47,835 bases of DNA from Bacteroidales bacterium (lineage in GTDB: Bacteria > Bacteroidota > Bacteroidia > Bacteroidales > F082): NCBI GenBank assembly GCA_017530365.1, contig JAFXMK010000048.1, positions 1 to 47,835 of the forward strand, written 5' to 3'. The position numbers and the translations under genes were made by a program. The notes under the pieces were generated by a model. The model was given only the letters and a program-made list of their open reading frames with translations. It did not search any database and was not told the origin of the DNA. Shown piece by piece: positions 15,902-46,031 of the stretch. Within the stretch, counting starts at the first letter, position 1, and every line of letters starts with the position of its first letter.

Positions 15902-15970
15902 GACTCGGGACTCGAGACACGGGACACGGGACTGCGGGACACGCGTCTCGAAGTCTCGTGTCTCGAGTCC
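15902..15970. repeat. Heptamer array forming an 18-bp hairpin (gal operon)
   Basis: Seven-base units GACTCGG, GACTCGA, GACACGG, GACACGG, GACTGCG run from 15902. They are followed by the inverted units CGTCTCG, AAGTCTC, GTGTCTC, GAGTCC to 15970. Arms 15908-15925 and 15953-15970 pair over 18 bp with one G-U. It lies in the 90-base gap of the gal operon, 8 bases after the nucleotidyltransferase stop. Confidence 0.8.
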
Positions 15971-15978
15971 ATTAACAC

Positions 15979-16881
15979 TTACCATAGGTTATTTGGATAA
16001 ACGCCTTTGTCGATCAGCTCACGGATCTTGCGCATCACGTCGGGTTTGTCTTCCTTGTAGGTGACGCCAAACCAGGAGGCGTTGCTCGACAAGACTTTCA
16101 GCTTGGCTGAGCCATCGTGAATGCTTTGGTTGACCATCAGCGGGATGAAGAACTCGGCTTTGATGTTGGTCTGGGCAGGTCCCTTCAGGAACTCGACAAA
16201 GCCCTTCTCCGAATACTCAAAGAAGTCGGGCGTAAAGCCGAAGAAGTTCATCGAAACGAGAGAATCCATATCCAGCGGGTGAGAGCCAGTCTCGTCGGTG
16301 TAGGCCGCGCCGCCGTCTTCGGTATGACCGATGGCGGTGCGCTCGACGATGGTTTGAAGGTTGCCTTCATCGTCGGCGGTGCAGATGCCACGGCTCACCG
16401 TGCCGAAGTCCGACATGGTGTTGCGCAGCTTGTAGGCGACCATGCTGTAGGCGCCTTTCTTGCCTTCGCATTCCATGAGATATTTGGCCAGCACCTCGTA
16501 TGCTTCCTTGCCATAGAAGTCGTCGGCGTTGATGGCGGCGAAAGGCTCGTGAATCACGTCCTTGGCCATCAACACGGCATGGCAGGTGCCCCAGGGTTTC
16601 ACGCGCCCTTCAGGGACGCTGAAGCCTTCCGGCAATTTGTCGAGAGATTGATAGACATATTCAACGGGGATGCCGAATTTCTCGGTGTTGTTCACTTTCT
16701 TGAAAGCCTCGGCGAAGTCCTCGCGGATGACGAAGACCACCTTGCCAAAACCGGCGCGCTTGGCGTCGTAAATGGAATAATCGAGGATGGCTTCGTTGTT
16801 AGGGCCGACGCCGTCCATCTGCTTTAATGCGCCATATCTGGAACCCATTCCAGCGGCTAAAACTAATAAAGTTGGTTTCAT
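15979..16881 (-). CDS. Sugar-phosphate nucleotidyltransferase in the galactose operon
   Basis: 300 residues of the nucleotidyl transferase (GT-A) superfamily. The nucleotide-binding signature LAAGMGSRYGALKQMDGVGP is at residues 7-26, the PWGTCHAVLMAKD segment is near 95-107, and the metal-binding NADDFYG follows at about 118-124. Other conserved lysines lie downstream. The product should be an NDP-sugar made from a sugar 1-phosphate. Its place between galK and galM, with no galT visible, suggests it could convert galactose 1-phosphate (or glucose 1-phosphate) to the UDP sugar; this is inference. GlcNAc-1-P or mannose-1-P type activity is an alternative. Confidence 0.78.
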   Translation of the reverse strand: MKPTLLVLAAGMGSRYGALKQMDGVGPNNEAILDYSIYDAKRAGFGKVVFVIREDFAEAFKKVNNTEKFGIPVEYVYQSLDKLPEGFSVPEGRVKPWGTCHAVLMAKDVIHEPFAAINADDFYGKEAYEVLAKYLMECEGKKGAYSMVAYKLRNTMSDFGTVSRGICTADDEGNLQTIVERTAIGHTEDGGAAYTDETGSHPLDMDSLVSMNFFGFTPDFFEYSEKGFVEFLKGPAQTNIKAEFFIPLMVNQSIHDGSAKLKVLSSNASWFGVTYKEDKPDVMRKIRELIDKGVYPNNLW

Positions 16882-16895
16882 TTTATTAAGTTGTA

Positions 16896-16920
16896 AATTG
16901 TTCAGTTGATCAGTTGTTCA
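16896..16920. repeat. TTGTTCAG/TTGATCAG repeat spanning the galK stop
   Basis: Copies of TTGTTCAG, TTGATCAG, TTGTTCAG in tandem (period about 8) overlap the galK stop codon at 16910-16912. The galK C-terminal residues KLNN are encoded in it. The same words recur at 41343-41406. Confidence 0.7.
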
Positions 16921-18061
16921 GTTTTCTGGCGCCATCTGAGATGACCACATCATAGACTTTGGGGTCATGCCCGAATTTGGCGTTGAACTTTTCTTTGGCA
17001 GTTTTTATAAAGCTATCATAGAGCTCTTCCTTCACCAGGTTGATGGTGCAGCCACCGAAGCCGCCGCCCATCACGCGAGAACCAGTGACACCGCATTCCT
17101 TAGCGATGTCGTTGAGGAAATCCAATTCTTCGCAGCTTACCTCGTAGAGCTTGCTCATGCCGAAGTGGGTGCCGTACATACGGTCGCCAACGGTCTCGTA
17201 ATCACCTTTTTCAAGAGCTTCGCACACATCGAGGACGCGTTGCTTCTCGCCGATGACGTATGAGGCGCGAAGGTAGTCTTCCCCAGAGATCAAGGGGCGG
17301 ACCTCATCGAGCATGTCCTGGTTGGCATCGCTCAGGTATTTCACTTCGGGGTACTTGGCGGCAATATGAGCGCAGGCGTTCTCGCACGATTCACGGCGAC
17401 GGTTGTAGGCCGATGAAGCCAGCTCATGCTTCACCAACGTATCCAACAGCACCACCTTGTAGCCCTTGGGATTGAAAGGATAGTATTCAAACTCCATCGT
17501 GGCGCAGTTGAGGCGCATCAGATGACCCGCCTTGCCAAAGAGCGAGGCGAACTGGTCCATGATGCCGCATTTCACGCCGACGTAGTTATGTTCCGTGGCT
17601 TGACCGATACGTGCCAACTCGAACTTGTCGATGCCAAGATTCAGCAACTCATTGAGGGCAAAGGCGAAAGTGCTTTCCAAGGCTGCCGACGACGACATGC
17701 CTGCGCCAATCGGTACATTACCGTAGAACACGGTGTCGAAGCCTTGCAGTTTATAGCCTCGCTTGATGATCTCGCGGCATACGCCAAAGATGTAATTGGC
17801 CCAATGTAAATGAGGATGATCTTCCTCGTTCAGGCCAAACTCGCAGTAGTCCTCCTTGTCGATAGAGCAGGCACGGACTTTATCTGTCCCGTTAAGGCGG
17901 ATGCAAGCGTAGATGCCCGAGTCAATGGCGCCTGGGAAGACAAAACCGCCATTATAGTCAGTATGTTCGCCGATGAGGTTGATACGTCCTGGCGAAGTAT
18001 AGACAACGCCTTCCTGACCGAAACGGTCACGGAAAATGTTCTTGAGTTCAGTGATATCCAT
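16910..18061 (-). CDS. galK: Galactokinase
   Basis: 383 residues, standard for GalK, a GHMP kinase that phosphorylates alpha-D-galactose at C1. The galactokinase signature GRINLIGEHTDYNGGFV is at about 25-41, the GHMP phosphate loop PIGAGMSSSAALES at about 116-130, the catalytic Asp in CGIMDQFASLFG, and motif 3 GSRVMGGGFGGCTINLV near 330. First gene of the operon galK - nucleotidyltransferase - galM - permease. No perfect TAnnTTTG was found upstream; TAACTTG at about 18081-18087 is the nearest. The last codons lie in a short repeat. Confidence 0.96.
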   Translation of the reverse strand: MDITELKNIFRDRFGQEGVVYTSPGRINLIGEHTDYNGGFVFPGAIDSGIYACIRLNGTDKVRACSIDKEDYCEFGLNEEDHPHLHWANYIFGVCREIIKRGYKLQGFDTVFYGNVPIGAGMSSSAALESTFAFALNELLNLGIDKFELARIGQATEHNYVGVKCGIMDQFASLFGKAGHLMRLNCATMEFEYYPFNPKGYKVVLLDTLVKHELASSAYNRRRESCENACAHIAAKYPEVKYLSDANQDMLDEVRPLISGEDYLRASYVIGEKQRVLDVCEALEKGDYETVGDRMYGTHFGMSKLYEVSCEELDFLNDIAKECGVTGSRVMGGGFGGCTINLVKEELYDSFIKTAKEKFNAKFGHDPKVYDVVISDGARKLNN

Positions 18062-18120
18062 AGCTATTAGATTTAAGGGCGCAAGTTACTAAAAATAATC
18101 TCAGAAATTGCAAAAAATAG

Positions 18121-21275: not shown

Positions 21276-21276
21276 G

Positions 21277-25934: not shown

Positions 25935-26011
25935 GAGGTTAGAGGTGAGAGGTTAAAGGTTAAAGGTTAAAGGTTAAAGGTTAAAGGTTAAAGGTTAGAG
26001 GTTAGAGGTGA
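25935..26011. repeat. Eleven in-register heptamers (GAGGTTA / AAGGTTA)
   Basis: Exactly 11 contiguous 7-base units: GAGGTTA, GAGGTGA, GAGGTTA, six AAGGTTA, GAGGTTA, GAGGTGA. The array begins 2 bases upstream of the addB-like ATG (minus strand) and contains the stop and last codons (SPLTSNL) of the MurU-like gene. Perfect internal copies suggest length polymorphism by slippage. Confidence 0.95.
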
Positions 26012-26725
26012 GAGATGGGATTCGATACGGGCGAAATCTTCGGCTTTGCCGAGATCAAACCAGTAGGTGGGATTGATTTCGACAGAACGGATGTGGTGTG
26101 CACGGGCTTGTTGGAGATACAAGTCGATGATACTGTAGCGCTGCCAAGGGAATTCGGCAAACAACGATGGCCTGAAAACATGCATGCCATTGAAAGCCAG
26201 TTCCCTATACTGATCCCTAGCACCATCCACCCATTTGTAGGCACCGTCTTTCAAGTTTTTCCAGCCGATCAACAGACCTTGCTCATCAAAGAGCAACTTC
26301 CGGCTCGTAATCCGATCCTGAGTCAACAGCCAGGCGTCATCCTGAGATGCAACGAATTGGTCGTACTTGGTTTGGAGATCGACATCGCTGAGGATATCCA
26401 CATTGTGCACCAACACTGCCTGAGCATCATGGAAGAAGGGAAGCGCTTGGACGATGCCGCCCCCTGTATCCATCAAGGCACCGCGCTCGTCCGACACATA
26501 GATGTCCGCCTGAAAGTCATGCGACTCAAGAAATTGGATGATTTGTTCTCCAAAGTGATGTATGTTGACGATGATGGTATCGAAACCTTGCTGCTGAAGA
26601 TTCTCTAGATTGCGCTCCAGTAGGGTCTTTCCGGCCACTTCGACAAGGGCTTTGGGTCGGTCGTGGGTCAGTTCCTTGAGCCTGGTTCCCAGACCGGCAG
26701 CGAGAATCATGGCTGTTCTATTCAT
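25988..26725 (-). CDS. MurU-like nucleotidyltransferase (MurNAc-1-P uridylyltransferase family)
   Basis: 245 residues. Nucleotidyltransferase signature MILAAGLGTRLKELTHDRPKAL is at about 6-27, with GGGIVQALPFF and the metal-binding VHNVDILSDVD. The size and sequence layout fit MurU, which makes UDP-MurNAc from MurNAc 1-phosphate in the cell-wall recycling bypass described in Pseudomonas. It overlaps the preceding AmgK-like kinase gene by 8 bases, the same kinase-transferase pairing. ATG 26725 is preferred over TTG 26740; ATG 26710 is possible. The final residues SPLTSNL and stop are encoded in the heptamer array, so the natural C-terminus may be variable. Confidence 0.82.
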   Translation of the reverse strand: MNRTAMILAAGLGTRLKELTHDRPKALVEVAGKTLLERNLENLQQQGFDTIIVNIHHFGEQIIQFLESHDFQADIYVSDERGALMDTGGGIVQALPFFHDAQAVLVHNVDILSDVDLQTKYDQFVASQDDAWLLTQDRITSRKLLFDEQGLLIGWKNLKDGAYKWVDGARDQYRELAFNGMHVFRPSLFAEFPWQRYSIIDLYLQQARAHHIRSVEINPTYWFDLGKAEDFARIESHLSPLTSNL

Positions 26726-28166
26726 GGATTTTCTGTTCAATATGGTTCAACCTCACGTTTACAGTAGGGTAGGTCGCCTTGATCCAGTCGGCGATGCTTT
26801 GCGCGAAAAACACGGAACGATGCTGTCCGCCAGTACATCCAAAGGAGACCATCAAGTTGCTGAAATGCCGCTCCAGGTAATTGTTGATGCTTTGTCCGAC
26901 AATGCCTTTCACATGCTCCAAAAAGACATGTGTCTGGGGCTTCTCCGTCAGGTATTCCACCACTTCCCAGTCGCGGCCCGTCTTGGTCTTGAACTGAGGT
27001 TCACGTCCAGGATTGGGCAAGGCTCGGCAGTCGAACACAAAGCCGCCGCCATTGCCACTGAAATCGTCAGGATAGCCCTTCTTGAAGGAGAAGCTATTCA
27101 CTGTTACTGTGAGGGGGGAGGGAGGAGTGTGGAGGGAGGAGTGAGGAGTAAACTTATTAAGCAACGTGACGACTTGGAGGATCACGGATTGGAGTTCGGG
27201 ATAGGCATCGAGGGGGTGTTTTTCATTCCAAGTCTTGAGTTCCTTCAGGGCGTATGGGATGCTTTCGATGAAATGGGCTTTCTTCTGTATCAAGCCGCGG
27301 AAGCCGTAGGCACCCAACACTTGCAGCAGTCTCAGATAAACGAAATAGGGATAATATCTGTCGAAATCCACCGAATCGGGATCAAGGTAGGCCGTCAACG
27401 CTTGTTTATAATACCCCAGCAACTCATCGCGCAAGCTTTGTGGCATCTGTGCTTTCACTTGATAGAGCAACGACACCACATCGTATTGCAGAGGTCCCCG
27501 CCGTCCACCTTGATAATCAATGAAACAAGGCTTGTCTTGGTCGATCATCACATTCCGCGACTGGAAATCGCGATACATGAAGAAGTCGTTTTTTGCCTGA
27601 CAGACCACATCGGCAAAGGCATTGAACTCAGCCTTGAGCCGGGTCTCGTTAAAGACAATCTCGGCATGTGGCTTCACGAAATAATACTTGAAATAATCCA
27701 AGTCGTCCATCACCGAAGGCTTGTCGAAGCAAGGCACGGGATAGACCTTGGAATAGTCAAGGCAGCGATGCCCCTCGATCTGGAAACGCACCAGCTGCTC
27801 AAGCGTCTGCTTGAAAAGACCAACTGTGTGTTCATCATATTTCCCAGCCGCCAAAGCATGCTGGACATGACTGAAAAGGGTGTCGTCGCCATGGTCCGAC
27901 TGTAGATAGCAGGTGCGTTCCTTGTTGACAGCCAACAGTTTAGGAACGATCAAACACATCTTTCCAAAGTGTTCCGTCAGATAGAAAAACGCCTCGTTTT
28001 CCTCCACATTGGCGTTATAGGTGCCAATCACGGAAGCCTCGGAGGTCTTCACACGGTAGTATTTTCTGGAGGAACCCGACTCCGCGATCGGCAGGATGTC
28101 AACAGGCGTCATCCCAATGGAACGGACGAGTTCCGACAAGTCGTTTTGGATATCGTAATCAAGCAT
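26718..28166 (-). CDS. AmgK-like sugar kinase fused to a RapZ C-terminal domain
   Basis: 482 residues in two parts. Residues 1 to about 335 are an aminoglycoside-phosphotransferase-fold kinase like AmgK (anomeric MurNAc/GlcNAc kinase), with an N-terminal ATP loop around IAESGSSRKYYRV, the catalytic region DFFMYRDFQSRNVMI and the metal site CFIDYQGGRRG. Residues from about 355 are the C-terminal domain of RapZ/YvcJ: FSFKKGYPDDF, FDCRALPNPGREP and SFGCTGGQHRSVFFA. Between them is a Pro/Ser/Thr linker encoded by a heptamer array (27113-27150). RapZ normally binds GlcN6P and RNA and tunes amino-sugar synthesis, so the fusion could tie salvage to sensing (inference). First gene of the operon with murU-like and addB-like genes. 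Confidence 0.85.
   Translation of the reverse strand: MLDYDIQNDLSELVRSIGMTPVDILPIAESGSSRKYYRVKTSEASVIGTYNANVEENEAFFYLTEHFGKMCLIVPKLLAVNKERTCYLQSDHGDDTLFSHVQHALAAGKYDEHTVGLFKQTLEQLVRFQIEGHRCLDYSKVYPVPCFDKPSVMDDLDYFKYYFVKPHAEIVFNETRLKAEFNAFADVVCQAKNDFFMYRDFQSRNVMIDQDKPCFIDYQGGRRGPLQYDVVSLLYQVKAQMPQSLRDELLGYYKQALTAYLDPDSVDFDRYYPYFVYLRLLQVLGAYGFRGLIQKKAHFIESIPYALKELKTWNEKHPLDAYPELQSVILQVVTLLNKFTPHSSLHTPPSPLTVTVNSFSFKKGYPDDFSGNGGGFVFDCRALPNPGREPQFKTKTGRDWEVVEYLTEKPQTHVFLEHVKGIVGQSINNYLERHFSNLMVSFGCTGGQHRSVFFAQSIADWIKATYPTVNVRLNHIEQKIHE
27113..27150. repeat. Heptamer array inside a CDS at a domain junction
   Basis: Plus-strand units GGGGGGA, GGGAGGA, GTGTGGA, GGGAGGA, GTGAGGA and a trailing GTAAACT. 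It lies in the minus-strand kinase-RapZ gene and encodes linker residues about 339-352 (Thr/Pro/Ser/His-rich). Confidence 0.8.
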
Positions 28167-28190
28167 GATCTATCGTCATTATTCGGTTTA

Positions 28191-28198
28191 CAAAGGTA
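28191..28198 (-). promoter_or_regulatory. -7 box for the kinase-murU-addB operon
   Basis: TACCTTTG on the minus strand, 24 bases before the ATG at 28166. Confidence 0.7.
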
Positions 28199-28243
28199 CA
28201 AAACAAATTTTTCACAAAATAGATTGCATTACGTTTTTATTGC

Positions 28244-28251
28244 TAAATTTG
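28244..28251 (+). promoter_or_regulatory. -7 box for the DUF349 gene
   Basis: TAAATTTG with a TTG 17 bases upstream (28224-28226). The ATG is 59 bases downstream, one of the longest leaders in the window. Confidence 0.65.
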
Positions 28252-28310: not shown

Positions 28311-30257
28311 ATGGAAAATAAAGAGCTTAAGGCCATTGATGCCAATGAGAAAAAGAAAATCGTCAAATTGAACCAGTCTTCAGTCCTTCCGGGTAGTATC
28401 CGAATCAAAGTGGAAACCCTGATGGAGCAACCAGTTGAAGAAGAGGTCAAGCCGACGGAGATCATTCCTCAAGACGAAGTCCTTCCTGAGATCGTGACCA
28501 ACGAGGAGATGGAAGAGGCTGAAGAGGAAGAAGATGTTGTTGAGAAAGTTGATATTGAAGGGAAGACCAAGGAAGAGTTGGCCGCCATGCTCGAAGAGAT
28601 TGTCCAAGATCCTGACGTCATGAAGGAAAAGGACAATGTCACTGCCATTCGCGTTCGTTTTATGAAGCTCAACAAGGAAGACATGGACAAGGAAATGGAA
28701 GCCTTCCTGGAGAGCGGAGGAGACAAAGAAAGCTACCAGCACGTTATGGACGATGCCGAGAAGCGCTTCAACGCCGCCTTCGGCATCTACAAAGCCAACC
28801 GCGCCCGTCAGAACGAGTTGCTGGATGCCCAGAAAAACGAGAACCTGGCCCAGAAGCAAGGCATCCTCGAAGAGCTCAAGCAGCTCATCGCCTCCGAAGA
28901 GACCCTGAAGAAGACCTACGATGACTTCCGCGCCCTCCAAGAGAAGTGGAAGACCATCGGACAGGTGCCCGCCACCGAGAACGCCAACCTTTGGAACACC
29001 TACCACTTCCTGGTGGAGAAGTTCTTCGACAAAGTCAACATCAACCGCGAACTCCGCGACCTCGACATGAAGAAGAACCTCGACGCTAAGATCGTCCTTT
29101 GCGAAAAGGCCGAAGAGCTGCTCGACGAGAAGTCCATGTCGAAGGCCTTCAAGAGCCTCCAGCAACTCCATGAGGAATGGAAGGAAGTAGGGCCGGTGCC
29201 TCAGGACAAGAAAGACGAGATCTGGGAGCGCTTCAAAGCCGCCACCGACAAGATCAACGCCATCCGCCGCGAACATTATTCCAAGATCCAAGATGAGCAG
29301 AACGCCAACCTCGCCACCAAGACCGCTCTCTGCGAGAAGGCCGAGGAGCTGCTCAACGAAGAATACACCAGCATCAACGTCTGGCAAAAGAAATCCACCG
29401 ACCTCAGCGAGCTCTTCAAAGTGTGGAAGACCGTTGGTCCCGCCTCGAAGAAACAGAACGAGGAGATCTGGACCCGCTTCAAGACCGCCATGGACACCTT
29501 CTTCGCCAAGAAGAAAGAGTTCTTCGCAAACCTGAAAGACAGACAGACCGAGAACCTCGAGCGCAAGATCAACCTCTGCATCGAAGCCGAAGCACTTCAG
29601 GAATCCACCGAATGGAAGAAAGCCACCGAGCGATTCAAGAAGATCCAGGAAGAATGGAAGACCATCGGCCCCGTACCGAAACGTCATGCCGACAAGATCT
29701 GGAAGCGTTTCAGAGCTGCCTGCGACACCTTCTTCGGCCGCAAAGCCGAGCACTTCGGTGGACTGAAAGAAGAAGAGGCCGCCAACCTCACCGCCAAACA
29801 GGCCATCATCGAAGCCATCAAGAACTTCGAACTCAAGACGAACCGCGCTGAGAACATGGAAGCCATCAAGGCCCTGCAGAAACAATGGATCGAAATCGGC
29901 CATGTGCCGATCAAGGTCAAGGACAGCATCAACAGCGAATACCGCAAGGCTGTGGATGCCCTCTTCGACAAGATGAGAAGTAACCAGAACGAGATCACCA
30001 CCAACGAATACAAGGAGATGGTGGAACTTATGAAGGACGATCCGGAATCGAGCGACAAGATGAGGAGAGAGAAGAACAACCTGGCCAACAGGATCCAGAA
30101 ACTCCGCGACGAGATCGCCGTCCTCGAGAACAACATCGGATTCTTCTCCAACAGCAAGAACTCCGAGCTGATGAAGGCTGAGTACGAAAAGAAGATTAAC
30201 AAAGCCAAGAACGATCTGAAGGTCTTGGAAGCGAAGCTGAAGATCGTGAATGATTAG
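28311..30257 (+). CDS. DUF349 repeat protein
   Basis: 648 residues, soluble and strongly helical. At least five DUF349 repeats are visible in the middle and C-terminal part, each with a W-x-x-[IV]-G-x-[VA]-[PS] motif: WKTIGQVP, WKEVGPVP, WKTVGPAS, WKTIGPVP and WIEIGHVP. An acidic N-terminus (about 40-85) and a C-terminal coiled coil (about 560-648) flank them. The function of DUF349 proteins is not established. The gene has strong C/G-ending codon bias compared with its neighbours, suggesting high expression. Its TAG stop lies at the edge of a heptamer repeat that leads into aroC. Confidence 0.9.
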   Translation: MENKELKAIDANEKKKIVKLNQSSVLPGSIRIKVETLMEQPVEEEVKPTEIIPQDEVLPEIVTNEEMEEAEEEEDVVEKVDIEGKTKEELAAMLEEIVQDPDVMKEKDNVTAIRVRFMKLNKEDMDKEMEAFLESGGDKESYQHVMDDAEKRFNAAFGIYKANRARQNELLDAQKNENLAQKQGILEELKQLIASEETLKKTYDDFRALQEKWKTIGQVPATENANLWNTYHFLVEKFFDKVNINRELRDLDMKKNLDAKIVLCEKAEELLDEKSMSKAFKSLQQLHEEWKEVGPVPQDKKDEIWERFKAATDKINAIRREHYSKIQDEQNANLATKTALCEKAEELLNEEYTSINVWQKKSTDLSELFKVWKTVGPASKKQNEEIWTRFKTAMDTFFAKKKEFFANLKDRQTENLERKINLCIEAEALQESTEWKKATERFKKIQEEWKTIGPVPKRHADKIWKRFRAACDTFFGRKAEHFGGLKEEEAANLTAKQAIIEAIKNFELKTNRAENMEAIKALQKQWIEIGHVPIKVKDSINSEYRKAVDALFDKMRSNQNEITTNEYKEMVELMKDDPESSDKMRREKNNLANRIQKLRDEIAVLENNIGFFSNSKNSELMKAEYEKKINKAKNDLKVLEAKLKIVND

Positions 30258-30290
30258 TTGGCAGTTGGCAGTTAGCAGTTAGCAGTTGAA
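30256..30290. repeat. Five heptamers (AGTTGGC/AGTTAGC) between DUF349 gene and aroC
   Basis: AGTTGGC twice, AGTTAGC twice, then AGTTGAA. It overlaps the stop of the DUF349 gene (30255-30257) at one end and contains the TTG start of aroC (30286-30288) at the other. Confidence 0.9.
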
Positions 30291-31236: not shown

Positions 31237-31264
31237 CTTCTTACTTCTTACTTCTGTATTCTAC
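31237..31264. repeat. Heptamer array between convergent aroC and prolyl oligopeptidase gene
   Basis: CTTCTTA, CTTCTTA, CTTCTGT, ATTCTAC, starting 3 bases after the aroC stop. On the minus strand it encodes the last residues (EYRSKK) and the TAA stop of the peptidase gene. Confidence 0.85.
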
Positions 31265-33424: not shown

Positions 33425-33437
33425 AGCCCTACGGGCT
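33425..33437. repeat. AGCCC/GGGCT palindrome sharing the CCCTACGGG core
   Basis: A 5-bp hairpin with TAC loop (AGCCC TAC GGGCT), preceded by GAGCT. Same core and neighbouring GAGCT as the third palindrome at 4970-4986. Confidence 0.5.
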
Positions 33438-33457
33438 ACTCCTTACTCCTCACTCCA
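33437..33457. repeat. Three heptamers at the parE stop
   Basis: TACTCCT, TACTCCT, CACTCCA. On the minus strand the TGA stop of parE (33450-33452) lies inside the GGAGTGA unit. Confidence 0.8.
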
Positions 33458-35396: not shown

Positions 35397-35402
35397 CAAA
35401 TT

Positions 35403-36695: not shown

Positions 36696-36699
36696 GCTT

Positions 36700-36707
36700 C
36701 AAAAATA
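36700..36707 (-). promoter_or_regulatory. -7 box for the flippase gene
   Basis: TATTTTTG on the minus strand, only 4 bases before the ATG at 36695. Confidence 0.65.
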
Positions 36708-36760
36708 CAATTCTTTTCGAGATTATTCGTTATTAAAAAGGTCCTTGTGAGAAAATTTCC

Positions 36761-36768
36761 TAATTTTG
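36761..36768 (+). promoter_or_regulatory. -7 box for the GT2 fusion gene
   Basis: TAATTTTG, 15 bases before the ATG at 36784; excludes the frame starting at 36766. Confidence 0.65.
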
Positions 36769-36783
36769 ACCGATTTTTCAACC

Positions 36784-38742
36784 ATGAAGCTATCCGTAGT
36801 CATCGTCAACTATAACGTGGAGTTGTTCTTGGAACAATGCCTCAACTCTGTCCGCCGAGCCATGCAAGGCATTGAGGGCGAGGTCTTTGTGGTTGACAAC
36901 AACTCCGTGGACGGCTCGCTGAAGATGCTTGCGGAGAAATTTCCTGAGGTGAAAGTCATTGCCAACAAGGAGAACGTTGGCTTCAGCCGCGCCAACAACC
37001 AGGCTATCAGGATATCCACGGGAGAGTACGTGCTTTTGCTCAACCCCGACACGGTGGTGGAAGACGACACCTTCTCGAAGTGCATCACCTTCATGGATGC
37101 CCATCCCGACGCAGGCGGCCTCGGCGTGAAGATGGTCGATGGAAAGGGCAACTTCCTTCCAGAATCCAAACGAGGACTGCCAACGCCGGCTGCTGCCTTC
37201 TACAAGATGTTCGGCCTTGCCAAGCTGTTTCCGCACTCCAAGCGCTTCGCACATTATTACATGGGTCACCTCTCCAACGATGAGACCAACGAGGTGGAGA
37301 TCCTGGCTGGAGCCTACATGCTGATGCGTCGGGAGACCTTGGATAAGGTGGGGCTCCTCGACGAGACTTTCTTCATGTACGGCGAGGACATCGACCTTTC
37401 TTATCGCATCACGCAAGGAGGCTACAAGAACTACTATTTCCCAGAGACCCGCATCATCCACTATAAAGGTGAGAGCACCAAGAAAACCAGCGTCAACTAC
37501 GTCTTTGTATTCTACAAGGCCATGGAGATCTTCGCCAAGAAACACTTCGGGCAGAAACGCGCCTTCTGGTTCTCCTTTTTCATCAACATGGCCATCTATT
37601 TCAAGGCTTTCCTGGCCTTGTTATCCCAGTTCTTCCACAAGATCGCTATCCCGTTCCTGGACGCCGTGCTTGGCTATGGCGGTTTGGCTGCCATCAGCTA
37701 TTTCTGGGGTAAGATGACCGTTTATGAGGGAACAGGGAGCTATCCCACCATACTCTTCGCTGTGGTGCTACCCGCCTATATCCTGATATGGCTGCTAAGC
37801 ACCTTCTTCGCTGGAGGATACGATAAGCCTTACAGCATTGGCAAGAGCGTATTCGGCGTGGCCATCGGCAGCGTCTTCGTACTCATGCTATATGCCTTGC
37901 TGCCCGAGTCGCTGCGTTTCTCACGTGCCCTGATCCTATTCGGCACCATCTGGCTCGCCTTGGAGATGAGCCTCATCCGTCTCATCGGCATTGCAATGGG
38001 GAAGGAGTCTTTCCTCTCGAAACGCAACGCCAAGAAACGTTTCCTCCTCATCGGCAGTCCAGAAGAGGCAAAACGCGTGGAGAACTTGATTCAAAGCACT
38101 TCCATCAAGCCCGACTTCATCGGTTTGGTCAGCTCAGAAGCCAAAGGGGAGACCCCCGAAGGGTTCATAGGGCGAATCAACCAAGTGCCTGACATCATCA
38201 ATATCTATAAGATCACAGAGGTCATTTTCTGTTCGAAGGATGTGCCACATCAGGTCATCATCGACAAGATGGTGGAATGGCACGCCTCCAACGTGGATTA
38301 CAAAATCGCACCGGAAGACAGCCTTTCCATTATCGGCAGCAACAGTATCAACACGAGGGGAGACCTCTATACGGTGGATATCAAAGCCATCGACACAGTA
38401 GCCAACCGCCGAAACAAGCGTTTACTCGATTTCATCCTTTCAGGATTCAGCATCTTGTTCTGGCTGCCACTGGCTTTGGTGGTGAAAAAGCCCGTCCGGT
38501 TCCTGAAAGACGCTATCTTAGTGTTGTTAGGCCGCCGCACCTGGGTGGGCTACTGCAACACTTCCGACGAGACCCAGAAGTTGCCAAAGATTCGTCGTGG
38601 GGTTTACAATCCAGCCACCCCATTGGAAAAACTCGGCACCGAGAATGGCACCGAGTTTTATAACCAATTGAATCTGCTGTACGCCCGCGATTACACAGTC
38701 TGGAAAGACGCGGAGATCTTTTTCAAGTCGATCTCGAGATAA
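36784..38742 (+). CDS. GT2 glycosyltransferase fused to a membrane/Rossmann region
   Basis: 652 residues. Residues 1-245 are a WbbL/rhamnosyltransferase-like GT2 domain: LSVVIVNYNVE, FVVDNNSVDGS, NVGFSRANNQAI, LLLNPDTVVE and LDETFFMYGEDIDLSYR. Several membrane helices follow (about 265-420). A Rossmann-like domain begins at RFLLIGSPEEAKRVENLI, as in the N-terminal half of WcaJ-type polyprenyl glycosylphosphotransferases. It ends KRLLDFILSGFSILFWLPLAL... without the catalytic part of that enzyme. The transferase sugar is unknown; role in surface polysaccharide. Divergent from a flippase. The stop TAA lies in the first unit of the palindromic heptamer array. Confidence 0.85.
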   Translation: MKLSVVIVNYNVELFLEQCLNSVRRAMQGIEGEVFVVDNNSVDGSLKMLAEKFPEVKVIANKENVGFSRANNQAIRISTGEYVLLLNPDTVVEDDTFSKCITFMDAHPDAGGLGVKMVDGKGNFLPESKRGLPTPAAAFYKMFGLAKLFPHSKRFAHYYMGHLSNDETNEVEILAGAYMLMRRETLDKVGLLDETFFMYGEDIDLSYRITQGGYKNYYFPETRIIHYKGESTKKTSVNYVFVFYKAMEIFAKKHFGQKRAFWFSFFINMAIYFKAFLALLSQFFHKIAIPFLDAVLGYGGLAAISYFWGKMTVYEGTGSYPTILFAVVLPAYILIWLLSTFFAGGYDKPYSIGKSVFGVAIGSVFVLMLYALLPESLRFSRALILFGTIWLALEMSLIRLIGIAMGKESFLSKRNAKKRFLLIGSPEEAKRVENLIQSTSIKPDFIGLVSSEAKGETPEGFIGRINQVPDIINIYKITEVIFCSKDVPHQVIIDKMVEWHASNVDYKIAPEDSLSIIGSNSINTRGDLYTVDIKAIDTVANRRNKRLLDFILSGFSILFWLPLALVVKKPVRFLKDAILVLLGRRTWVGYCNTSDETQKLPKIRRGVYNPATPLEKLGTENGTEFYNQLNLLYARDYTVWKDAEIFFKSISR

Positions 38743-38817
38743 GATAAAAGATAAGAGATAAAAGATAAAAGTTAGGGATGGTCAAAACTTTTATCTTTTA
38801 TCTCTTATCTTTTATCT
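38736..38817. repeat. Heptamer array as a perfect 32-bp palindrome
   Basis: Left arm 38742-38773 and right arm 38786-38817 are exact reverse complements over 32 bases with a 12-base loop. Each arm consists of GATAAAA/GATAAGA heptamers. The stop of the GT2 gene (38740-38742) and the stop of the convergent GH109 gene (38812-38814) both lie in the first heptamer of their arm. Probably a bidirectional terminator. Confidence 0.95.
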
Positions 38818-40224: not shown

Positions 40225-40250
40225 AGGTTTTGTTTTGCAATTTTGACCGA

Positions 40251-40258
40251 CAAATTTA
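40251..40258 (-). promoter_or_regulatory. -7 box for the GH109 gene
   Basis: TAAATTTG on the minus strand, 26 bases before the ATG at 40224 and 11 bp from the opposite box. Confidence 0.7.
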
Positions 40259-40269
40259 GGAAAGTTTCT

Positions 40270-40277
40270 TAACTTTG
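40270..40277 (+). promoter_or_regulatory. -7 box for the NahK-like kinase gene
   Basis: TAACTTTG, 17 bases before the ATG at 40295. Confidence 0.7.
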
Positions 40278-40294
40278 TCAAAAATAAACTGACT

Positions 40295-41374
40295 ATGAGC
40301 GAAATAAACACTCTTCACTCCATCGCTGGGCATTTCATCGATGCGTCCCGAATCGAAAGCATTCAGCCTTTGGGCAACGGCCTGATCAACGACACTTTCA
40401 AGATCATGATGAAAGGGCAGGAGCAGCCCAAGTTTGTCTTGCAGCACATCAACGATAAGGTTTTCACCGATGTGGAGATGCTGCAACACAACATCAAGAC
40501 GGTCACCGACCACATCCGTCACAAGTACGAAGCTAATGGAATGTCCGACATCAGCCGTCGAGTGTTGCATTTCCTGAAGGCCGACACGGGAAAGACCTAC
40601 GTGAAGGTGGGAGAGGAGTACTGGCGGGTGATGGACTTCATCGCCGACAGCGTGACCCAGGAGGCCGTCACGCCACAATCCGCTTACGATGCCGGAATCT
40701 CCTTCGGCGACTTCGAGGCATTGCTGGCCGACCTGAGAGAACCGATAGGGGAGATCATCCCAAATTTCCACAATATCGAATTCCGACTGAAGCAGCTGAA
40801 CGATGCCATCGCTGCCGATCCCATTGGACGGATGGCTGACCATGAAGTTCAAGATTATGCCAAGAAAATCAAAGACTTGGCATACGATATGAGTCTTGGT
40901 GAACGCTTATATCGCGAGGGCAAGTTACCGAAACGCATCTGCCATTGCGACACCAAAGTCAACAATATGCTCTTTGACAAAGAAGACAAAGTACTGTGCA
41001 TCATCGACTTAGATACGGTCATGCCCAGTTTTGTGTTCTCTGATTTTGGTGATTTCCTGCGTTCGGCCGCCAACACCGGAGCCGAGGACGACCCCGACCT
41101 TGGAAACATCCATTTCAACATGGAGATTTACGACGCTTTCTTGGAAGGCTACCTGGAAGGCACCAAATCTTTCTTAACGCCCGTTGAACGTGACCATCTG
41201 CCGTATGCGGCATGCTTGTTCCCATACATGCAGGCCGTCAGGTTCTTTGCCGATTATATCAATGGCGACACCTATTATAAGGTGAAATATCCCGAACACA
41301 ACATGGTGCGGACCCGAGCGCAGTGGAAATTGTTTGAAAGTTGTCAGTTGGAAGTTGATCAGTTGTTCAGTTAA
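40295..41374 (+). CDS. Aminoglycoside-phosphotransferase-fold sugar kinase (NahK-like)
   Basis: 359 residues, the size and layout of N-acetylhexosamine 1-kinases (NahK/LnpB). Visible: the N-lobe IQPLGNGLINDTFKI and KFVLQHINDKVF, the catalytic loop RICHCDTKVNNMLFD and the metal site CIIDLDTVMPSFVFSDFGD. The likely reaction is ATP-dependent C1 phosphorylation of GalNAc or GlcNAc. The divergent GH109 neighbour would supply GalNAc, which supports the call; choline or other APH-type substrates are alternatives. The last 11 residues (SCQLEVDQLFS) and the stop are encoded in a repeat that forms a 19-bp palindrome. Confidence 0.8.
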   Translation: MSEINTLHSIAGHFIDASRIESIQPLGNGLINDTFKIMMKGQEQPKFVLQHINDKVFTDVEMLQHNIKTVTDHIRHKYEANGMSDISRRVLHFLKADTGKTYVKVGEEYWRVMDFIADSVTQEAVTPQSAYDAGISFGDFEALLADLREPIGEIIPNFHNIEFRLKQLNDAIAADPIGRMADHEVQDYAKKIKDLAYDMSLGERLYREGKLPKRICHCDTKVNNMLFDKEDKVLCIIDLDTVMPSFVFSDFGDFLRSAANTGAEDDPDLGNIHFNMEIYDAFLEGYLEGTKSFLTPVERDHLPYAACLFPYMQAVRFFADYINGDTYYKVKYPEHNMVRTRAQWKLFESCQLEVDQLFS

Positions 41375-41406
41375 CTTCTAACTGAACAACTGATCAATTG
41401 ATCAAC
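41343..41406. repeat. Repeat palindrome between convergent kinase and DUF3127 genes
   Basis: CAGTTG-type units of 7-8 bases; arms 41355-41373 and 41379-41397 are exact reverse complements over 19 bases with a 5-base loop. The kinase stop (41372-41374) lies in the left arm, and the DUF3127 stop begins at 41407. The words match the galK-stop repeat at 16896-16920. Confidence 0.85.
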
Positions 41407-41811
41407 TTAAAACGGAAGGTCGTCGCCGTTGTTGCTGTCGTTGCCGAAATAGTCTTCAGGGCCGCCAGTGGGAGCCGCTGGAGGTGTTTGATGCATGGCT
41501 TGTGGTACAGCCTGAGGAGCGGCTTGCTGCACAGGAGCTTGGGCGTTGATGGGATCAAAACGCCACACACGCACGTCGGTGTACCATTTGCCGTTGAATT
41601 CTCTGGAAGAGATATCGATCTGCGCTTTGATGAGTTGTCCAGGCACCATGCTTTGGATTTCATTGATTTGGTTAGTCCAGCACGTCAAGCAAACGGTTTT
41701 GGGGTATTGTTCATCCGTTTCGATGATCAGGTCCTGTTTACGCCAAGGACCTTTGGCGCTTGTTCCTTCGGTAAGACCGCCGAGTCTCACCACTTTACCT
41801 GTGATTTCCAT
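41407..41811 (-). CDS. DUF3127 OB-fold protein with SSB-like C-terminal tip
   Basis: 134 residues. The first 90 (MEITGKVVRLGG, KQDLIIETDEQYPKTVCL, GQLIKAQIDISSREFNGKWYTDVRVW) match DUF3127, a Bacteroidota OB-fold family. The rest is a Gln/Pro/Ala-rich linker that ends NGDDLPF, the acidic-hydrophobic tip by which single-stranded DNA-binding proteins recruit partners. A role in single-stranded DNA metabolism is therefore plausible, though SSB homology is not clear. The start at 41811 is dictated by the promoter at 41838-41845; upstream in-frame Met codons precede the expected transcription start. Confidence 0.85.
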   Translation of the reverse strand: MEITGKVVRLGGLTEGTSAKGPWRKQDLIIETDEQYPKTVCLTCWTNQINEIQSMVPGQLIKAQIDISSREFNGKWYTDVRVWRFDPINAQAPVQQAAPQAVPQAMHQTPPAAPTGGPEDYFGNDSNNGDDLPF

Positions 41812-41837
41812 ATTTGTATAAGTTTTAGATTTCATTG

Positions 41838-41845
41838 CAAAGATA
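41838..41845 (-). promoter_or_regulatory. -7 box for the DUF3127 gene
   Basis: TATCTTTG on the minus strand, 26 bases before the ATG at 41811. Confidence 0.65.
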
Positions 41846-41960
41846 AGGTTCAAAACCTCAAAAATGTTCACTTTGTAGAATATTCTTCCAATGTTTTTCG
41901 CAACTTCTTCACTTCCTTTTTGTTATCCCTTTTCAAATATAATCAATATTATGTTAAATA

Positions 41961-41995
41961 GAAGTAAGAAGAAAGAAGCAAGGAGGAAGAATGAT
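41961..41995. repeat. Heptamer array, left arm around the TPR gene terminator
   Basis: GAAGTAA, GAAGAAA, GAAGCAA, GGAGGAA, GAATGAT. It is an imperfect reverse complement of the array at 42033-42060, with the terminator hairpin between them. The 146 bases between the DUF3127 start and this array hold no convincing gene. Confidence 0.75.
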
Positions 41996-41997
41996 AC

Positions 41998-42030
41998 AAA
42001 AAAAGACCCTGGGTTGGCTCACCCAGGGTC
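41998..42030 (-). terminator. Rho-independent terminator of the TPR gene
   Basis: A perfect 10-bp stem GACCCTGGGT (42005-42014) with ACCCAGGGTC (42021-42030). On the minus strand it is followed by seven T residues (41998-42004), 28 bases after the TPR stop. Confidence 0.88.
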
Positions 42031-42032
42031 CC

Positions 42033-42060
42033 CTTCTTACTTCTTGCTTCTTACTTCTTA
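42033..42060. repeat. Four heptamers (CTTCTTA) at the TPR gene stop
   Basis: CTTCTTA, CTTCTTG, CTTCTTA, CTTCTTA. The TAA stop of the minus-strand TPR gene (42058-42060) is the first three bases of the first unit TAAGAAG. Confidence 0.9.
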
Positions 42061-43221
42061 CTCAGCATCCAAAGCCTTCGCCTCGTCCATCATCTTCAGC
42101 TGGACATACATGGTCTTCAGCACGTGCTTCAGATCATCGGAAGGTTGAGCTCTGTAAGCTTCTTCAGCATACGGCAGACCCGTACGGAGAATCTCTTCAG
42201 CTTCAGCAACCAAGGCATTGTAACGCTCGATTTCTTTCTTCGAGAAACCGGTGATCTCGTTGGCTTCAGCCTTCTTCTTGTTAGAAAGGTTGATGTACAA
42301 AGCAGCCAGGTTGTAATCGGCATCGTAGAACTTAGGATTCACATTCAGAGCCTCCTTGTAATAACCGATGGCCTTGTCAGCATCAAAGATCTCATGCGTG
42401 TCATCACCGTAGATCGTACCAAGGATGAAGAGAATCGAAGCATTATTCGGATCCATCTCGTGGAGCTTGTTGAGGTCTGCAATGGCTTCCTCACCTTTAC
42501 CGTTTTTCAGATAGATATTCACCTTTTCAATGATCATGGAAGCGTCGCCGGGATTTCTCTCAAGACCAGCTTGGATCATTTCAAAGCTCTTTTCTTCATT
42601 GCCAAGACCATTGTAGCAGATAGCCATGTTCTTGTAGAGGTCAACATTCTTGTAACCCAGGTTCTTCAGCTCTTCGTAGTTGGTCAGAGCCTCGTTGAAC
42701 ATACCACCTTTTTGATAAGCAAGAGCGGTATTGACCAAAGCGGAAGTGTCAGGATTGGCACCGCTTAAAGAAATCTCATACGACTTGCGGAAACTTGTGG
42801 CAGCCTGAGGATAAGCCTGATTGTTGAAGTTCTCAACACCATCCTGGAAGAAATTCACGGCGATGGCAGCAATTCTCGGATAGATGTCCTGAGCATTGTC
42901 CTTGGCATAGTTGGCATCAGCCTTAACGCAGTTTTCAAGAGCCTCGTATGCTTTTTCAAGGCAATCCGGATACTTGGCGGCAAATTCAGGGTTCTGGTGA
43001 ATGTTGAGGTAGATCATGCCACGATACAGCCATGCCTGAGCCTGATCTTTCGGTTTCATGCCAAGGAAACCTTCGTGATGCACGCACTTCTCAATAGATT
43101 CAACAGCCTTGTCATACTGACCGTTCTTATTGTACATGTATGCGTTCGTACGGTCGGTTTTCTGAGCCATCATCACATTCGCGGAAAGAATGACAGCCAA
43201 TAAAATCACTAATTTTTTCAT
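42058..43221 (-). CDS. Periplasmic tetratricopeptide repeat protein
   Basis: 387 residues with a cleavable signal peptide (1-19, MKKLVILLAVILSANVMMAQ). Helical TPR units cover most of the mature chain, for example YDKAVESIEKCVHH, TALAYQKGGMFNEALTNYEEL, MAICYNGLGNEEKSFEMIQAGL, GEEAIADLNKLHEMDPNNASILFILG and DADKAIGYYKEALNVNP. A lysine-rich helical segment (NKKKAEANEITGFSKKE) near 320 interrupts them. It is a protein-protein scaffold; partner unknown. Ends at a heptamer array and an intrinsic terminator. No promoter box was found in the 63-base gap from gyrA, so it may be cotranscribed with it. Confidence 0.9.
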   Translation of the reverse strand: MKKLVILLAVILSANVMMAQKTDRTNAYMYNKNGQYDKAVESIEKCVHHEGFLGMKPKDQAQAWLYRGMIYLNIHQNPEFAAKYPDCLEKAYEALENCVKADANYAKDNAQDIYPRIAAIAVNFFQDGVENFNNQAYPQAATSFRKSYEISLSGANPDTSALVNTALAYQKGGMFNEALTNYEELKNLGYKNVDLYKNMAICYNGLGNEEKSFEMIQAGLERNPGDASMIIEKVNIYLKNGKGEEAIADLNKLHEMDPNNASILFILGTIYGDDTHEIFDADKAIGYYKEALNVNPKFYDADYNLAALYINLSNKKKAEANEITGFSKKEIERYNALVAEAEEILRTGLPYAEEAYRAQPSDDLKHVLKTMYVQLKMMDEAKALDAE

Positions 43222-43248
43222 TTTCTTTCAGTTTATTAGTTATACAAC

Positions 43249-43276
43249 TTTTATCTCCTATCTTTTATCTCTTATC
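43249..43276. repeat. Four heptamers after gyrA
   Basis: TTTTATC, TCCTATC, TTTTATC, TCTTATC, ending 8 bases beyond the gyrA TGA (43285-43287). Same unit (GATAAAA) as the palindrome at 38736-38817. Confidence 0.85.
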
Positions 43277-43284
43277 TACAACAA

Positions 43285-45852
43285 TCATTCCACATCCTTC
43301 TCCCCTGCCTCTTCTGGCTCACTGGGCTCCACAGGAATCGGATTACCATCCTCATCGTATTGCACCTCACCTTCTTCCTCTTCGTCTTCTCTCTTCACCT
43401 TGGTGACCGCAGCAATCTCGTCGTTACCTCTCAAGTCGATGAGCTTCACGCCTTGGGTGGCACGACCCATGACTCTCAAGGTGTCGGCACCGATTCTGAT
43501 CAGGATACCGGACTTATTGATGATGATGAGATCGTCTTCGTCGGTGACATCCTTGATGGCAATCAGATCGCCAGTCTTTTCCGTGATGTTCAAGGTCTTA
43601 ACACCCTTACCGCCACGGTTGGTGATGCGGTAGTCTTCGATGCCACTGCGTTTTCCGAAGCCCTTCTCAGAGACCACCAAGACGGTCTGTTCAGAACTAT
43701 GGATGCAGATCATGCCGATGACCTCGTCATTCTCCGAAGCCAAGGTGATGCCCTTCACGCCGGAGGCGTTACGGCCCATCGGGCGAACAGTCTTTTCATT
43801 AAAACGGACTGCCTTTCCTGAACGAAGTGCCATCAGCACCTCGTCTTCGCCGCTGGTCATGTTGGCGGTCAGCAGCTCATCTCCCTCACGGATGTTGATG
43901 GCGTTGATACCGGCCTTACGCGGACGTGAATAAGCCTCGAGGGTGGTCTTTTTGATGACGCCCTTCTTCGTGCAAAGGATCACGTAGTGGTTGTTGATGA
44001 ACTCTTCGTCCTTCAAATCCCTTACGTTCAGCACGGTGATCACCTTGTTGTCCTTATCGACATTCAGCAGGTTCTGGATGGCCCTACCCTTGCTGTTCTT
44101 GCCCTCTTCGGGAATCTCGAAAGCACGCAGCCAGTAGCACTTGCCTTGTTCGGTAAAGAACAGCAGGTAGTTGTGGTTGGTGCAGGTGAAGATATGCTCG
44201 ATGAAGTCGGTGTCGCGGGTCGAAGAGCCTTTGGAGCCCTTGCCTCCCCTGCTCTGGCGGCGGTATTCACGCAACGGGGTACGTTTCACATAGCCGAGAT
44301 GCGAGATGGTGACCACCACGGTGTCGTCGGCGATCATATCCTCGATGCGGAACTCGCCAGCAGCGGGAACGATCTTGGTGCGGCGCTCGTCACCATATTT
44401 ATTTTTGATTTCGGTAAGTTCGTCTTTGATAATCTGGAATTGCATGTCCACATTTTGTAGAACATCGTGGAAATGGCGGATCTTTTCCTCAAGGTCTTCC
44501 AACTCGTCCATGATCTTCTTGATCTCCAGTCCGGCCAACTGACCGAGGCGGTAGGCCACGATGGCGGAAGCCTGAGGATCGTCAAATCCGAAGCGTTCCA
44601 TGATGGCTTGCTTGGCTTCGGCGGAGCCGCCCTTACAGGCACGGATGGTGGCGATGATCTCATCGACGATGTCGATGGCACGGGCCAGACCTTCCAGGAT
44701 ATGGGCACGTTCCTCAGCCTTCTTGAGGTCGAATTGGGTACGGCGGATGACTACCTGATGGCGGTGATCCACGAAATGCTTGATGAGGTCTTTCAGGTTC
44801 AGCGTGTAGGGACGACCGTTGACCAGGGCCACGTTGTTCACGTTGAACGAGCTCTGCAGGGCGGTCATCTGATACAGCTTGTTCAGCACCACCTCGGCAT
44901 TGGCATCGCGTTTCAGTTCATAGACGATGCGGATGCCCTTACGGTCGGATTCGTCACGGATGTCGGCGATGCCGTCCAACTTCTTGTCGTTGACCAGGTC
45001 GGCCGTCTTCTTGATCATGTCGGCTTTATTGACCTGATAAGGTATAGAGGTGGCGATGATGCGCTCGTGGCCGTTGTGTTCCTCGATGGTAGCTTCGCCA
45101 CGGACCACGATACGTCCCCTACCCGTCTCAAATGCCTCTCGGACGCCTTCGTAGCCGTAGATCACGCCAGCCGTCGGGAAATCGGGAGCCTTGATGAACT
45201 CCATGAGTTCCTGGACGGTAATGTCGTTGTTGTCGATATAGGCGATGATGCCGTCAACGCATTCGCTGAGGTTGTGCGGAGCCATGTTGGTGGCCATACC
45301 GACGGCGATACCGTTGGAGCCGTTGACCAGCAAGGCGGGGATCTGTGTCGGGAGCACCGTGGGTTCCTGAAGTGAGTCGTCGAAGTTGTTCTGGAAATCG
45401 ACCGTATCCTTGTCGAGGTCGTCCAGCATCTCTTCTGCGATCTTCTTCAGGCGGGCCTCAGTGTAACGCATGGCAGCCGGGCTGTCGCCGTCAACACTGC
45501 CGAAGTTACCCTGTCCATCCACCAAAGGATAGCGCAGCGACCAGTTCTGGGCCATACGCACCATGGCGTCATATACTGAGGCATCGCCGTGAGGATGGTA
45601 TTTACCGAGGACCTCACCGACGATTCTCGCCGATTTCTTGTAACCACTATGGGATGTCACACCCAAACCCAGCATGCCGTACAACACGCGACGGTGCACA
45701 GGTTTCAATCCGTCCCTCACGTCAGGCAAGGCACGGGAAATGATGACCGACATCGAGTAGTCAATATATGCTGATTTCATCTGGTTCTCAAGGTTTACCT
45801 TGATGATTTTTTCACCAGACTGAAGTTCTTCGTTCTGATTGTTCTCTTCCAT
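43285..45852 (-). CDS. gyrA: DNA gyrase subunit A
   Basis: 855 residues. The winged-helix/tower core has active-site Tyr 130 in [12 protein letters not shown]. The GyrA box is present as QSRGGKG in the C-terminal beta-pinwheel, which identifies gyrase rather than topoisomerase IV subunit A. The last 35 residues are an acidic tail ([15 protein letters not shown]). In the quinolone-resistance region the sequence is [16 protein letters not shown]: the residue matching E. coli Ser83 is Ala 91, and Asp87 is kept as Asp 95. Own promoter at 45879-45886, divergent from clpC. Partner subunit not adjacent. Confidence 0.96.
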
Positions 45853-45878
45853 TTTAAGGCCGTTTTTTTAAGCAGGTG

Positions 45879-45886
45879 CAAAGGTA
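45879..45886 (-). promoter_or_regulatory. -7 box for gyrA
   Basis: TACCTTTG on the minus strand, 26 bases before the ATG at 45852. Confidence 0.7.
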
Positions 45887-45979
45887 CAAAATTTTCCTTT
45901 ACCAACCACGGGAAAGACGTTTTTTCATGAAAAATTGTCAATTTGGCCTAAAAAACAAGCGAGGAGCGATTTTTGTTAT

Positions 45980-45987
45980 TAAATTTG
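45980..45987 (+). promoter_or_regulatory. -7 box for clpC
   Basis: TAAATTTG, 49 bases before the ATG. The heptamer array lies between it and the start codon, i.e. in the 5' leader. Confidence 0.65.
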
Positions 45988-45996
45988 CATCTTGAA

Positions 45997-46031
45997 ATTC
46001 TTACTACTTACTTCTGAATTCTAAATTCTTT
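45997..46031. repeat. Five degenerate heptamers in the clpC leader
   Basis: ATTCTTA, CTACTTA, CTTCTGA, ATTCTAA, ATTCTTT, close in sequence to the array at 31237-31264. The only array in the window that is not next to a gene 3' end; it ends 5 bases before the clpC ATG. Confidence 0.7.

Follow-up and report, generated by a model that had tools for sequence, protein, structure and literature searches.

Head-to-tail repeats of seven bases are dispersed through a number of bacterial genomes, and those of Calothrix and Nostoc go by the name STRR. Here we analyse a stretch of 47,835 nucleotides (nt) from a member of the Bacteroidales (assembly GCA_017530365.1, contig JAFXMK010000048.1), hereafter the window, in which heptamer arrays of several different sequences lie at the ends of genes, and we compare it with further parts of its own genome and with related genomes. 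In Xanthomonas, GGGAATC/GGGANTN heptamers with five conserved positions are mostly intergenic, prefer the coding strand, lie within 50 bp of a stop codon or overlap it, are rare between divergent genes, occur as inverted neighbours (70 and 75 cases in two species) and vary in length and sequence between sister species (Rehm and colleagues, PMC4692102). That paper reports that transcript starts and stops are commoner at the quadruplex-forming heptamers, leaves the role of the repeats open, and refers to an earlier report of heptamer over-representation in bacteria and to an account of slippage based on polymerase contact. It also mentions GGGGAYT repeats in Nostoc PCC 7120 and older heptamers of Calothrix and Nostoc, which are like ours in being dispersed. 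TAACTGA heptamers were reported from Beggiatoaceae, cyanobacteria and five Bacteroidetes, with their role likewise left open (MacGregor, PMC4679880), and a 2025 survey names Bacteroidota among the phyla in which tandem repeats are dense (PMC12699852). An earlier note on this DNA was right in placing heptamer repeats in cyanobacteria and, given the TAACTGA report, mistaken in knowing of none in Bacteroidota.

Our arrays share with those of Xanthomonas the period and the preference for stop codons and for the coding strand; like them, they are under-represented at divergent junctions, have inverted neighbours and vary between sisters. They differ in that Xanthomonas has one G-rich unit for which quadruplexes were proposed, whereas here there are at least eight families, most of which lack three consecutive G (the fixed letters of the common units AGAAGNN, AGTTNNN, AGGAGNN and AGATAAR hold no run of three or more), units differ between species at one site, and long stems occur at many convergent junctions (PMC4692102). 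The TAACTGA repeats, too, are heptamer direct repeats located between genes of Bacteroidota, sometimes in a mixture with different heptamers, but they have one defined unit, which in a Beggiatoaceae genome and Flexibacter litoralis lies mostly directly upstream of start codons, whereas ours lie at stops (PMC4679880). What is already known from these sources is therefore the occurrence of heptamers near stops with inverted pairs and of heptamers in Bacteroidetes. Our main new result is turnover: between species the letters of the unit change, while place and strand are often kept, and in the clearest case, a junction between facing genes, the shape of a hairpin is kept under changed letters. 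Our searches of the open-access literature brought up no paper recognised as describing interchangeable heptamer families at one junction. The arrays resemble STRRs in their 7-base head-to-tail units, their dispersal mainly outside coding sequence and their whole-unit changes of copy number relative to a sister genome. The conserved element sequence of repetitive extragenic palindromes (REP) or miniature inverted-repeat transposable elements (MITE) is not seen, as families differ between orthologous sites and one genome holds many unit types.

Arrays were detected with Tandem Repeats Finder and a run scorer. The genome of the window (G000, 2.67 Mb, with the window as contig C45) was sampled over 841 kb, window included; the period-12 count and the Markov shuffles of this genome come from a 741-kb sample. 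A pool of 1.57 Mb from the genus was scored as well, in which certain stretches had been chosen for known arrays and orthologs were counted too. Scores of at least 12 were used for period counts and of at least 10 for the placement set of G000 (n = 93); the pool set comprises 206 period-7 arrays, to which 37 period-8 arrays were added for junction and pairing counts. Other genomes and loci are denoted by G and L numbers, G021 being a sister of G000 and G022 a more distant relative.

The period-7 arrays at gene ends are a correct and strong observation. At a single threshold the window held 12 period-7 runs against 0.1 in order-1 Markov shuffles, so that random sequence of like composition gives far fewer; other periods from 4 to 13 gave 0-3 runs each, and the multiples 14 and 21 gave 8 and 4. 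The numbers of arrays with periods 5/6/7/8/9/10/11 in the G000 sample were 0/2/71/26/8/0/0, the 741-kb sample had 10 of period 12, three Markov shuffles yielded none of period 7, and the genus pool contained 163 period-7 arrays with scores of at least 12. Head-to-tail 7-base units are thus far above chance, accompanied by a lesser related set of period 8, most of whose runs belong to one related family, CAGTTGWT and similar. All ten sites for which the earlier note had listed period-7 arrays were recovered at or within a few bases, and its placement of all but two of them at gene 3' ends holds, the exceptions being 27111-27149, inside a gene, and 46000-46029, which is divergent and lies before a start. 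Its two sites of supposedly mixed 7- and 8-base units were half right: the period is 8 both at 16898-16923 and at about 41334-41407.

Of 178 arrays at least 24 nt long, 161 could be assigned by eye, from the sequence of their purine strand, to eight families (AGAAGNN, AGTTNNN, AGGAGNN, RAGGTNA, AGATAAR, AATTNNN, AACGGAR and GACNCGR), with AAAGTGG-like and CTAAAGN-like units among the 17 left unassigned. Mismatches within arrays concentrate in two adjacent positions, whose share was 0.77 compared with 0.60 for random placement (66/78 arrays exceed the null). When AGAAG cores were sought at free spacing in G000, 7-7 spacing occurred in 12 of the 13 places listed out of 112, neighbours among which may share one array.

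Arrays were called stop-side when within -40 to +15 nt of a stop codon. Enrichment at stop codons holds beyond the window: 61/93 arrays in G000 were stop-side, 40 of these overlapping the stop, and 21/93 lay inside called genes. The strand is also biased: in 52 of the 61 the sense strand is the purine-rich one (hereafter purine-sense), compared with 52% of the 618 array-free gene ends that served as baseline. In the pool, 129/206 arrays were stop-side and 85% of these purine-sense; a purine content of at least 70% was found in 69% of them compared with 7% of 519 array-free ends. Among arrays not overlapping the stop, 18/21 in G000 and 31/37 in the pool (p 4e-4) were purine-sense. The rule was broken by 19/129 pool stop-side arrays, including 25935-26014 of the window, where pyrimidines predominate on the coding strand, and arrays 16-60 nt past the stop showed the opposite bias (2/16 purine-sense in the pool), some of them being the second arm of a pair. 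The remaining pool arrays were inside called genes (35/206), at a start only (10) or elsewhere (32), so that 171/206 were not wholly within a called gene, many of these overlapping a gene end. By junction type, arrays were present at 13/94 convergent, 46/469 tandem and 4/90 divergent junctions in G000 and, with both periods counted, at 32/180, 124/784 and 9/179 in the pool.

Comparison between related genomes, which the earlier note had suggested, revealed differences in the presence of arrays and whole-unit length changes. Across 124 junctions shared by G000 and G021, arrays were present in both at 20, in G000 only at 4, in G021 only at 5 and in neither at 95; across 55 junctions shared with G022 the corresponding numbers were 10, 7, 3 and 35. 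At shared sites the family is often unchanged and the copies vary, and at times the family itself differs. The clearest case is the junction 41374|41407, where six unit families account for the strong hairpins of 9/13 testable genomes (folding z from -3.5 to -7.3). The units there are CAGTTGAT (period 8) in G000 and G021, AACGGAR in G022 and G008, AAAGGTK in G004, AAAGTGG in G010 and G025, AGATAAN in G011, and CTAANNT in G005 (by eye, below the array threshold). G023, G007, G012 and G009 had no strong fold there (z -0.4 to 1.0), and the test leaves out G006 (contig edge) and G001, G002 and G003 (no ortholog obtained). At 25932|25988 an array was present in 5/11 genomes (here and below, G000 is included in the count), each with its own unit: AGGTTAA in G000, TAGCAAT in G021, GTTGAGA in G022, GATAAAA in L011 and GAGTTAG in L013. 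Likewise, 33379|33450 had an array in 4/6 genomes, of ACTCCT types in G000 and G008, TTCTTAC in G004 and TTCTGTC in G010. Arrays were present at 45852|46037 in 3/5 genomes and at 41811|42058 in 6/7; at the latter, the two arms in G022 belong to a different family and still share an exact complement of 11 nt. These differing units rule out simple retention of an ancestral array sequence at several junctions.

Inverted pairing is concentrated between facing genes. Counting exact complements of 13 nt or longer that lie no more than 130 nt away, we found a partner for 21/32 pool arrays (periods 7 and 8) in convergent spacers of at least 35 nt, compared with 10/99 in tandem spacers of that length (Fisher 2e-9), 0/38 in shorter tandem, 2/12 in short convergent and 0/11 in divergent spacers and 4/51 inside genes or elsewhere; the null taken from the flanks of other arrays was 1.2%. 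With period 7 only, 9/20 convergent against 1/48 tandem arrays of G000 had an inverted partner. Paired arrays between facing genes are predicted to be able to form long hairpins.

Earlier, the stop codon had been placed in the first unit at seven sites and the arrays read as universal translation stops. The former is roughly so: the stop lies wholly or partly inside 9/15 array segments, and inside the arrays at 6/10 listed sites and both period-8 sites, with 25935-26014 and 31237-31255 having it in another unit. The latter is not supported, and we regard it as very improbable. Three frames are stopped by 59/129 stop-side arrays and two by 44 more, but stop-bearing units past the gene end are no commoner than in letter shuffles (24 vs 22.4 of 37, p 0.29), and selection for stop codons as the aim of the arrays was rejected on the same ground. 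Arrays overlapping the stop do have more stop-bearing units than letter shuffles (72/92 vs 60.8, with 0/2000 shuffles reaching 72). An array that extends over the end of a gene has to bring a stop with it, so this excess looks like the effect of a filter and not like a purpose. Of the 35 arrays wholly inside genes, 8 had a stop in the sense unit and 15 in the antisense unit. A reading of the pyrimidine strand as a rut site for Rho was also set aside as not convincing (YC-bearing units 106/129 vs 101.6 in letter shuffles, p 0.076).

We propose, at an even chance, that these are fast-evolving, STRR-like arrays held largely to gene 3' ends by selection, with the paired stem serving as a bidirectional terminator or insulator. 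Arrays would gain and lose whole 7-nt units, as the comparison of close sisters supports, probably by slippage, and copying between loci may be one route by which they are replaced. An array beside a gene end would survive if its purine-rich strand is the transcript strand, and one running into the gene would also have to bring a stop codon. Between facing genes two arrays would often be kept complementary, which would give each of the two transcripts a long stem at its end. It is plausible that paired arrays may act as terminators, and our best guess is that the stem would keep facing transcripts apart as a bidirectional terminator or insulator. What would be kept is shape and strand bias and not letters, as suggested by 41374|41407, where the family differs between species and the hairpin stays. 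A bolder form of the proposal, which we hold only tentatively and find somewhat doubtful, is a sequence-free 3'-end module, with a purine-sense heptad array per gene end and a heptad hairpin between facing genes, in which period and pairing would define the terminator and the units of both arms would differ wholesale between species with site, strand and stem kept.

The rival explanations are not mutually exclusive. Neutral slippage, by which heptamers arise anywhere and survive in 3' spacers and loose linkers, their hairpins resulting from template switching and not from selection, we consider possible and on the unlikely side. It agrees with the array at 27111-27149 in a protein linker, where heptamers of differing unit were found in 9/11 orthologs examined (8 by the scorer, L015 by eye), with length changes in multiples of 7 relative to G021 (7/14 at shared array junctions vs 3/26 array-free) and with junction lengths being altered at 16/20 junctions having arrays in both sisters compared with 29/95 empty ones. 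Against it stand the strand bias, which persists in the arrays not overlapping a gene, and the concentration of inverted partners at convergent junctions, both as given above. Copied palindromic cassettes, REP- or MITE-like, would move array hairpins between gene ends as units, and sequences that match the period-8 arm 41339-41374 at roughly 80-100% identity are found at many places in G000, G003, G010, G012 and others. Also in its favour, 24-mers common to G000 loci made up 24 pairs compared with 9.6 in unit-shuffled arrays (maximum of 100 shuffles 18); against it, 21-mer and 28-mer sharing was within shuffle range (33 vs 20.9, maximum 36; 3 vs 1.2, maximum 5), and whole-array copying as the sole source was rejected for this reason. 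We judge this account improbable. Purine-rich RNA can stall RNA polymerase through an R-loop or H-DNA, and orientation-dependent stalling of this kind at gene ends, with no need of a hairpin, would account for the single arrays between co-directional genes and for the purine-sense rule. The purine excess is often only mild, however, in arrays of common families like AGTTNNN and AATTNNN, and stalling appears to us quite improbable.

The period is found in other lineages as well. In G041 and G036, of another Bacteroidota family (485 kb, picked for high AGAAG counts), period 7 was the sole period in excess, with 18 and 16 arrays against 0-1 for the others, and 17/18 stop-side arrays were purine-sense. 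The contigs of L083, L032 and L039, dense loci of other Bacteroidales titled Bacteroidaceae and Prevotellaceae, carried 5-8 heptamer arrays per 16-21 kb, and G322, the genome of L083, had 191 matches of GGAGNNAGGAGNNAGGAG, overlapping matches counted. Across 133.6 kb from other families of the order, in seven stretches (G013, G014, G015, G016, G018, G019 and G020), we found no period-7 array scoring at least 12 and one at score 10. The wider Bacteroidota are patchy, with many arrays in G041 and G036, 3 in G067, 1 in G185, 1 in G058 in a stretch picked for that array, and none in short samples of G029, G153, G127 and G239. The 7-base period is thus widespread and the purine-sense bias is shared by two lineages; the pairing of arms into hairpins has so far been observed within this genus alone.

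A number of results weigh against selection for a terminator or insulator at gene ends. At 14 paired convergent junctions a U-tract after the stem (at least 5 T of 8 nt) was found in just 6/28 directions. A consensus terminator scan of 28000-47835 gave 14 sites vs 20.1 in shuffles, one of them (31218-31240) touching an array; it missed the T-run hairpin in 41960-42062 and is accordingly a weak test. Predicted folding energy per base at convergent junctions was -0.275 both with arrays (32) and without (66), and single arrays between co-directional genes are unable to form such stems. Array sites other than 41374|41407 are often lost. At 38742|38812 the arrays are paired in 2/7 genomes only (G000 and G022), G010 has a single AGTTGGG array, and no array was called in G021 (where a short AGATAAG palindrome is left), G004, G008 or G023; at 43173|43285 an array was present in 3/7. 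Whole-unit length change relative to G022 was not significant (2/9). In G041 and G036 merely 18/51 arrays were at stops, depletion at divergent junctions was not clear (5/44 vs 6/48 convergent) and 1/9 convergent arrays was paired, and in L032, L039 and L083, where the gene caller was trained on little sequence, 5/24 arrays were at stops and 1/5 was purine-sense. Genes were called with a codon scorer of our own making, and orthologous arrays are among those counted in the pool.

If the arrays do end or insulate transcripts, they would be terminators of a type that consensus searches tend to miss. A junction at which the unit has been replaced naturally while the hairpin persists makes it possible to tell whether selection acts on structure or on sequence, and since such replacements occur at 41374|41407, the question of function becomes testable within one genus.

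Table 1. Heptamer and octamer arrays of the window with the genes next to them (gene strand in brackets).
Array	Positions	Strand	Gene context
GACWCGG family, with partly complementary second arm	15902..15970		8 nt past stop of NTP transferase gene 15979-16881 (-)
Period 8, TTGTTCAG/TTGATCAG	16898..16923	-	includes TGA stop of galactokinase-like gene 16910-18061 (-)
AGGTTAA, about 11 units	25935..26014	-	includes TAA stop of NTP transferase gene 25988-26740 (-)
GGAGKGA	27111..27149	-	within gene 26718-28166 (-), between APH-like and RapZ C-terminal domains
AGTTGGC/AGTTAGC	30256..30287	+	starts within TAG stop of DUF349 gene 28311-30257
CTTCTTA (sense TAAGAAG)	31237..31255	-	includes TAA stop of gene 31241-33379 (-); convergent with chorismate synthase
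ACTCCTN, weak (score 10)	33437..33456	-	includes TGA stop of gyrase/topoisomerase-B-like gene 33450-35399 (-)
AGATAAR, 5' arm of convergent hairpin	38741..38771	+	overlaps stop of gene 36784-38742
CTTTTATCT, matching arm (30-nt exact complement)	38788..38817	-	includes stop of gene 38812-40224 (-)
Period-8 CAGTTGAT palindrome	41334..41407		between convergent genes 40295-41374 (APH-like) and 41407-41811 (DUF3127, -)
AGAAGNN pair, longest exact complement 12 nt	41960..42062		downstream of TPR gene 42058-43173 (-)
AGATAAR family, weak (score 10)	43252..43277	-	7 nt past stop of gyrase-A-like gene 43285-45852 (-)
Irregular TTCTTAC/TTCTAAA (score 11)	46000..46029		7 nt ahead of start of Clp-like gene 46037-47833 (+)

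Among the period-7 segments of the window, 4/12 are weak, with scores of 10-11 (33437-33456, 41960-41989, 43252-43277 and 46000-46029). The GACWCGG family of the first array is also found at the corresponding junction of the sister genome G021, and the two arms of 41960..42062 enclose, by eye, a GC-rich hairpin whose T-run lies on the - strand. Because the units at 27111-27149 differ among orthologs, the linker peptide of the APH-like/RapZ protein should change wholesale. The DUF3127 protein (41407-41811, -) ends, by eye, in DDLPF, which we take to resemble the acidic tail of single-strand DNA-binding proteins.

Judged by the chorismate synthase next to 31237-31255, the closest named relative of G000 is RUG14627, a metagenome-derived genome from an uncultured Bacteroidia (protein identity 92%; locus L006, in G021). 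The junction of this gene carries a palindrome with CATTGCGAGGAGCG in G021 and a variant of it in G022; the window has the heptamer array only. The same palindromic repeat lies between genes in 5/263 loci: L006 (10970-10983), L165 (2147-2160, the same place as L006), L124 (18369), L126 (16627) and L167 (2766). A dispersed, palindrome-like repeat of about 90 bases, at 16867-16957 of L124, has many matches on both strands in G021 and G022 and may be distinct from the palindrome with CATTGCGAGGAGCG. At Rfam gathering thresholds, matches across the whole window are limited to one tRNA and the Bacteroidales small signal recognition particle (SRP) RNA (RF04183), the latter at 3852-3959 (+).

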